Positions 28,275 through 37,226 of a stretch of DNA of 42,266 bases are shown here, in pieces (the first letter of the stretch is position 1; each line of letters begins with the position of its first letter). The stretch is from the NCBI GenBank assembly GCA_946409745.1, contig CAMJXP010000004.1:1-42266 (forward strand). The letters run 5' to 3'. The notes under the pieces were generated by a model. The model saw only the letters and a list, made by a program, of their open reading frames with translations. It had not been told where the DNA came from and did no database searches. Origin of the DNA: an uncultured Candidatus Saccharibacteria bacterium (GTDB lineage: Bacteria; Patescibacteriota; Saccharimonadia; Saccharimonadales; Saccharimonadaceae). Made by a program: the position numbers and the translations under genes.

Positions 28275-28724
28275 TTATTTCTTCCCTTTTTGTTCCTTCA
28301 ATATGTTTTCAAAATCTTCGAGAGTTTTAAACTCACGGAAGACGCTGGCGAAACGGACGTAAGCGACTTCGTTGACATCGGCGAGGACATCGAGGACGGC
28401 TTCGCCAATTTGCTTTGAAGTGATTTGCTCGGTGCCATAGGAATAGAGGATGTCGGTAACACGGTTGATGACCTCTTCGATTTCGAGTTCGGAATTGAAG
28501 AATTTGCCAACACTACGCTTAACGGCAAGGAGAAGCTTATCACGATCAAAGATTTCTTTGTTGCCACTACGCTTTAAGACAGTAAGTGGTGGCATTTCAA
28601 TACGCTCGTAAGTAGTAAAACGCCGACCATCCGGCGTTTCACGGCGGCGACGAATCATGGTGCCATCTACCGTTTCTCGACTTTCAAGAACTTTGCTGTC
28701 TCCAATACGGAATTTGTGGTCCAT
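28275..28724 (-). CDS. nrdR: NrdR-family repressor lacking zinc-ribbon cysteines
   Basis: SKVLESRETVDGTMIRRRRETPDGRRFTTYERIE followed by ATP-cone LTVLKRSGNKEIFDRDKLLLAVKRSVGK. Confidence 0.9.
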   Translation of the reverse strand: MDHKFRIGDSKVLESRETVDGTMIRRRRETPDGRRFTTYERIEMPPLTVLKRSGNKEIFDRDKLLLAVKRSVGKFFNSELEIEEVINRVTDILYSYGTEQITSKQIGEAVLDVLADVNEVAYVRFASVFREFKTLEDFENILKEQKGKK

Positions 28725-36677: not shown

Positions 36678-37115
36678 TCAGTGAGCGTAGGCGATGTTCT
36701 GCTCCATCGCTTGAGTTTCGAGAGCGGCAAGGCGCTCGGCGTCATCGATGGCAGAGTTAACAGAGTGCTTCACACGGGCAGACTCTTCGGCTTTTTTAGC
36801 ATCGTTCCAGCGATCAAGCGTACCGACGAGATAGCCGGTGATGCGGCGAAGGCGTTCAAATTTGCCTTCATCGAAGTATTCGGCGTACTCTTCGAAATAT
36901 TCTTTAGCAGCTGCTTCGCCCTTTTTCTCGGCGATGAGTCTCATGCCAACTTCAACAAGGCAGGAGACGTGCATGGTTTCATATTGTTCGAAATCTTCGA
37001 GTGCAGTAGCGACTTCTTTTTCGCTGACTTTGGCATATCTTTCGAGCGATTTCACGAAACGCTTGATGTCGAAAGTGCAGGCATCATTCGGATTTCGGTA
37101 GATGATTTTCTTCAT
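36678..37115 (-). CDS. Stand-alone protein with class III RNR-like C-terminal glycyl-radical motif
   Basis: FERLRRITGYLVGTLDRWNDAKKAEESARVKHSVN resembles NrdD C-terminus RRxCGYL...RVKH. Confidence 0.55.
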   Translation of the reverse strand: MKKIIYRNPNDACTFDIKRFVKSLERYAKVSEKEVATALEDFEQYETMHVSCLVEVGMRLIAEKKGEAAAKEYFEEYAEYFDEGKFERLRRITGYLVGTLDRWNDAKKAEESARVKHSVNSAIDDAERLAALETQAMEQNIAYAH

Positions 37116-37169: not shown

Positions 37170-37226
37170 CATTATATACACTATATATAGTGGTGTCAAG
37201 GACTTTTTGACACTAAATGTGGAGTT
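37170..37226 (-). promoter_or_regulatory. Consensus promoter overlapped by tandem NrdR-box-like sites
   Basis: Minus: TTGACA-N17-TATAAT; box 1 ACACTATATATAGTGG (37178-37193), weaker box 2 ACACTAAATGTGGAGT (37210-37225), 32 bp apart. Confidence 0.8.

Follow-up and report, generated by a model that had tools for sequence, protein, structure and literature searches.

A stand-alone glycyl-radical protein as the probable radical subunit of a split class III ribonucleotide reductase in Saccharibacteria

GrcA/YfiD of E. coli and Y06I of phage T4 are autonomous glycyl radical cofactors of pyruvate formate-lyase (PFL) (PMC8683613). Spare-part proteins of this kind have been validated for PFL only, and the case of other glycyl radical enzymes was left open by the authors of that study. 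The open reading frame (ORF) analysed here lies in a 42,266-nucleotide stretch of DNA (the window) from a group of tiny Saccharibacteria of the gut and resembles these cofactors in being a small stand-alone protein, made of an N-terminal half and the C-terminal glycyl-radical part of its enzyme, with representatives in both bacteria and phages. It differs from GrcA/YfiD in that its sequence is not of the PFL type but of the type of NrdD, the class III ribonucleotide reductase (RNR), PFL being almost absent in the group, and in that its N-terminal domain is predicted to be folded while that of YfiD is disordered.

The class III RNRs of Prevotella copri (PcNrdD, structure 8p23, in which the radical glycine is Gly711; PMC11226230) and Streptococcus thermophilus (StNrdD) provide the second point of comparison. 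Their ATP-cone, barrel, thiyl cysteine, NxN flap, zinc ribbon and glycyl loop are all encoded in the genome from which the window comes, as are an NrdG encoded next to nrdD and NrdR-type control. Unlike in these enzymes, the glycyl loop is here a separate protein with its own predicted ATP-cone-like domain, encoded by an unlinked gene, and the barrel protein stops before the loop.

RNR polypeptides encoded in two pieces have been described in phages, including NrdA of Aeromonas phage Aeh1 (reported functional) and the products of several phage nrdD genes (PMC3653736). Most of these involve introns, inteins or homing endonucleases, whereas the break described here coincides exactly with the glycyl loop, has become fixed in many species and shows no intein or endonuclease. 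An ATP-cone fold on a radical-bearing subunit is found in NrdB of Leeuwenhoekiella blandensis (5olk), which is among the top structural matches of the ORF product; however, this radical subunit belongs to class I and its cone binds nucleotides, and the ORF lacks the KRDG motif. No split NrdD or NrdD spare part in Saccharibacteria or Patescibacteria was found in the literature searched, which excludes most subscription journals and preprints. Here we propose that the ORF very likely (probability about 0.86) encodes the glycyl-radical subunit of a class III RNR in which two polypeptides are obligatory, and we infer that it arose from a spare-part protein; neither biochemistry nor a model of the complex supports the proposal as yet.

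The stand-alone ORF and its control region

The ORF (36678..37115, minus strand; ATG at 37115, stop codon at 36680-36678) encodes a 145-aa protein that contains FERLRRITGYLVGTLDRWNDAKKAEESARVKH and matches NRDD, PRK14704 and PRK07111. The Pfam NRDD match (30.1 bits, cut-off 26.2) covers profile positions 532-562 of 562, and with the matches to PRK14704 (E=1.8e-12) and PcNrdD (E=8e-8) it is not a product of chance. PcNrdD (8p23, chain residues 706-738) is the only significant match among solved structures. The matching segment comprises residues 85-117 (KFERLRRITGYLVGTLDRWNDAKKAEESARVKH; 36765..36863, minus strand), in which the predicted radical glycine Gly94 (codon 36834..36836, minus strand) aligns with chain residue 715 of 8p23, that is, with Gly711 of PcNrdD (chain numbering runs 4 ahead of native numbering in the alignment used). 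Gly94 is invariant in 63/63 aligned sequences, and the segment is almost unchanging across the two types of the protein described below (A and B) and hardly differs from the catalytic tail that full-length relatives carry. Among glycyl-radical families the product matches NRDD alone, the PFL-type family PF01228 (Gly_radical) giving no match. Residues 118-145 (36681..36764, minus strand) form a C-terminal extension with a conserved predicted helix, seen in the alignment and the structure model. The original prediction, made from sequence alone, had noted a strong resemblance to the C-terminal glycyl-radical segment of NrdD with Gly94 as the candidate radical site, and had named a profile search and the conservation of Gly94 as checks; the resemblance was borne out by both.

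In total, 193 loci homologous to the ORF were detected in Saccharibacteria. Type-A proteins, to which the ORF belongs, show strong purifying selection (pN 0.15 vs pS 0.84, pS being saturated), and the ORF is a real, conserved gene.

The N-terminal domain (residues 1-84; 36864..37115, minus strand), which carries Cys52 in type A only, is predicted to adopt an ATP-cone fold. An AlphaFold model built with 60 homologues has a pLDDT of 90 and a pTM of 0.79, and each of the top 19 Foldseek matches in the PDB is an ATP-cone protein (NrdR, NrdB, NrdD or NrdA), with modest scores (E 0.06-1.3, TM 0.52-0.67); a model of the whole protein (pLDDT 67) recovers the same families. The ATP-cone signature PF03477 matches neither type A nor type B, and profile-profile comparison (hhalign) of the domain with NrdD ATP-cones gave nothing significant, so the assignment stands on the predicted fold alone. 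In the alignments the KRDG nucleotide-binding motif is absent, with IIY[RK]N or IIYF.. instead. We infer from this modelled fold that the domain is likely a degenerate cone, probably non-binding and used in docking. A cone joined to a glycyl loop is an NrdD without its barrel, which suggests that a duplicated nrdD may have lost its internal part, although this has not been shown.

Upstream of the ORF lies a sigma-70-type promoter (TTGACA-17-TATAAT, 12/12 consensus; 37171..37199, minus strand), overlapped by the NrdR-box-type palindrome ACACTATATATAGTGG (37178..37193, no strand), the sole such site in the window at <=3 mismatches (0.07 expected). A similar box is located ~125 bp upstream of this genome's nrdD, and NrdR-type boxes scoring 12-16 of 16 (shuffled mean ~9.8) precede, in the sample taken, almost every nrdD and the majority of the stand-alone genes. 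The window also contains an nrdR-like gene (28275..28724, minus strand), whose TIGR00244 score of 117.9 bits is just under the cut-off of 124.65 and whose Zn_ribbon_NrdR and ATP-cone matches exceed the Pfam cut-offs. The matching boxes are an observed feature of both genes; that this NrdR is their common repressor is likely.

The ORF has polA directly upstream and mutM downstream, and no RNR barrel gene adjoins it, the barrel gene being on another contig. Among type-A loci, polA is adjacent in 74/80 and mutM in 79/80, while neither is adjacent in any of 35 type-B loci (the single polA/mutM match tallied under type B, L175, is really the type-A protein of genome G012); no widely conserved neighbour of type-B genes was detected. 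The start, promoter, NrdR box, upstream polA and lack of an adjacent barrel gene given in the original prediction are all confirmed.

A truncated NrdD as the probable partner

The genome's only other NRDD match, on contig C3, covers profile positions 2-529, against 532-562 for the ORF. Its nrdD product (731 aa, ending ...CPHCGRLEGDVPFEKVCNCAKGK) is complete through the zinc ribbon and ends just short of the glycyl loop. The gene reads intact into nrdG (TIGR02491, 129.5 bits, cut-off 126.1), the ATG of which overlaps the nrdD stop. Of the 746 positions of PRK07111, 1-709 are matched by NrdD and 708-744 by the ORF; on PcNrdD 8p23, NrdD residues 1-714 correspond to chain residues 5-704 and ORF residues 85-117 to 706-738. 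The truncated NrdD and the ORF together tile one NrdD. The main RNR therefore lacks its own glycyl tail, an outcome that the original prediction had singled out for checking.

The catalytic residues of the partner are intact: Cys180, Cys181, Cys426 (the thiyl position) and the zinc-ribbon cysteines are retained in 28/28 truncated NrdDs aligned, and this genome's NrdD has an NAN flap (NxN flap) at residues 123-125. The glycyl loop (RRxTGYL...RVKH) is also present, but on the separate ORF, and at no point are barrel and loop found on one polypeptide in this genome's class III RNR. A C-terminal CxC of the truncated NrdD was considered as a partner for Cys52 and dropped; the proteins of G004, G010 and G037 end without it.

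A single nrdD wrongly split over two contigs would give the same picture, and the genome is indeed assembled in 44 contigs. However, each of the two contexts, polA-ORF-mutM and nrdD-nrdG, is contiguous, and the same arrangement occurs in 35 congeners besides this genome and in genomes from named records. An artefact is all but excluded by this recurrence in independent assemblies.

It might also be supposed that the ORF and the truncated NrdD are decaying remnants, and that deoxynucleotides or deoxynucleosides are taken from the host. Saccharibacteria are reduced symbionts, and a few high-completeness genomes have no NrdD match (e.g. G021, 96% complete), both of which suit this view. Against it stand the pN and pS values, the invariant Gly94, the intact catalytic residues and the retained NrdR-type boxes, and we regard it as highly improbable. 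The degraded NrdD remnant listed among the alternatives in the original prediction is rejected by the purifying selection. The refuting outcomes it had named (no relation to NrdD, an unconserved glycine, or a complete NrdD beside a neutrally evolving ORF) were sought and not found.

A regulatory or assembly protein was another of those alternatives; it would act on NrdD or NrdG, and its Gly94 would carry no catalytic radical. The ATP-cone-like N-terminal domain and the NrdR-type box do point to a regulatory setting. Yet there is no glycyl loop for the truncated NrdD apart from that of the ORF, a second RNR was not found, and the segment scarcely departs from the tail that serves catalysis in full-length relatives, so that this role is strongly disfavoured.

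Distribution and history in the genus

Co-occurrence of the two genes was followed in samples of 60 and then 174 genomes of the genus, the latter counted by hand from the match table. Among the 60 congeners, 35 of the 36 with a truncated NrdD have the ORF, compared with 7 of the 23 with a full-length NrdD (Fisher p=3e-8). One genome, G052 (92% complete), counts against the proposal, having a truncated NrdD but no ORF that could be found. In the larger sample, the type-A protein occurs in 89/174 genomes, none of which (0/89) has an in-cis NrdD tail, while the diverged type-B protein occurs in 27/174, with a full-length NrdD bearing a cis tail in 25/27 (p=2e-23 for the contrast). Both p-values overstate the evidence, since related genomes are not independent. 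Cys52 is present in all 28 type-A sequences aligned and replaced in type B. A second genus of the family likewise combines type B with a full-length NrdD. The split NrdD is also seen in six genomes from named records, one of them Candidatus Nanosyncoccus alces, although some of the six may duplicate assemblies in the genus sample.

These counts bear on the main rival, in which the ORF is merely a facultative spare part that mends oxygen-cleaved NrdD, as GrcA/YfiD does for PFL. It suits the type-B genomes, in which the protein accompanies a full-length NrdD, and also the phage-borne versions described below. It is inconsistent for type A, as no NrdD with its own glycine to be repaired was found in the window's genome or other type-A genomes; the type-A partner has no glycine of its own, so no intact enzyme is duplicated, unlike with GrcA/YfiD. 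For the ORF itself we therefore consider it unlikely. The two ideas of the original prediction thus each find support in different genomes: the split NrdD in the window's genome and 88 congeners, where the main NrdD has no tail match, and the GrcA-type helper in 25 congeners, where the diverged form stands beside a complete NrdD.

Class I/II RNR large subunits (PF02867) were not found in any of the 60 congeners, many of which are 95-100% complete, and a PFL-type enzyme was not found in 59/60 genomes searched. It is therefore likely that the split enzyme is the sole RNR. As the window's genome is only 78% complete, this rests on its relatives. PFL was also considered as an alternative partner of the ORF and rejected, a PFL-type enzyme being present in only 1/60 genomes (G005:C13:24701-26455). 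In the other families of the order, 39 of the 40 genera sampled have a class I/II RNR. The RNR class appears to be fully swapped, the genus having NrdD without class I/II and none of the 40 other sampled genera having an NrdD over the cut-off.

In the NrdD tree, the truncated forms make up one clade (SH-aLRT 96) nested among full-length forms and adjoining genomes that have both a full-length NrdD and the stand-alone protein. The simplest history, with which this tree agrees, would be that the spare part came first and was followed by a single loss of the cis tail; we put it forward as a possibility, and the origin from a spare-part protein remains inferred. In the tree of stand-alone proteins, type A is also one clade (100/99), but it lies closest to G140 rather than to its neighbours from the NrdD tree. 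Because the two trees give the type-A clade different neighbours, congruent descent of both genes is unsupported; the small gene may have been transferred or replaced, and the route of origin is unsettled.

A proposed mechanism and related forms elsewhere

In the proposed mechanism, NrdR would repress both nrdD and the ORF. The nrdD product supplies the ATP-cone, the barrel, the thiyl cysteine (Cys426) and the zinc ribbon, and the ORF would supply the glycyl loop in trans. The small protein would dock on the truncated NrdD through its ATP-cone-like N-terminal domain, its Gly94 loop entering the open end of the barrel. NrdG, encoded beside nrdD, would generate the radical on Gly94, from which it would move to Cys426 for NTP reduction. 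The part that bears the radical, and that oxygen would cleave, would then be a cheap and replaceable 16-kDa protein. Physical docking, radical formation in trans, activity and the role of the N-terminal domain are all inferred.

Splits at the same place are found outside Saccharimonadia. In at least 27 other Patescibacteria genomes (loci L237-L255, L257-L261 and L274-L276), NrdD ends at the same position and a glycyl-loop ORF of 45-90 aa lies just downstream, often after AGGAGG. These NrdDs belong to a very distant subfamily in the NrdD tree, so their splits are separate in origin from that of Saccharibacteria. The same pair of states is repeated here: NrdD is split in G774, and the related G730 has a full-length NrdD together with an additional glycyl ORF.

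Stand-alone NrdD-type glycyl ORFs are also encoded on nine viral contigs (L279, L280, L281, L282, L293, L294, L295, L296 and L298), recalling T4 Y06I for PFL. Some encode a protein of 136-139 aa with the same two-part build, and a terminase gene lies nearby on L279 and L281; others (L282, L293-L296 and L298) have glycyl ORFs of 46-115 aa with varied N-termini. A barrel NrdD was not found on these contigs, which may be fragments.

A bolder reading, which we consider likely, is that class III RNRs have spare-part glycyl-radical proteins in bacteria and phages, and that at least two separate Patescibacteria lineages whose NrdD lacks its own glycyl loop depend on a separate, replaceable radical subunit. 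This points to a set of spare-part proteins for an essential enzyme, and to one lineage where the spare part has apparently turned into an obligatory subunit. Such natural two-piece systems could be used for studying NrdG activation of the glycyl loop, loop docking and whether splitting gives protection from oxygen. In these genomes a seemingly truncated NrdD may in fact be whole, its tail having been annotated at another locus as an unknown protein.

Several further variations on NrdD architecture were observed. The glycyl ORFs of L255 (G774) and L256 (G730) bear an added N-terminal zinc-ribbon-like part. In six other Patescibacteria (G578, G662, G676, G530, G626 and G692), the NrdD matches are interrupted within frames of 1025-1557 aa, suggesting inteins. 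In Eggerthella phage EL753P1 (L299; OP172808.1, 3741-7172), nrdD has an intein-like LAGLIDADG insert and ends before the glycyl loop, which lies downstream and seems to be disrupted where the frame changes, between FERIRRI and TGYLTG.
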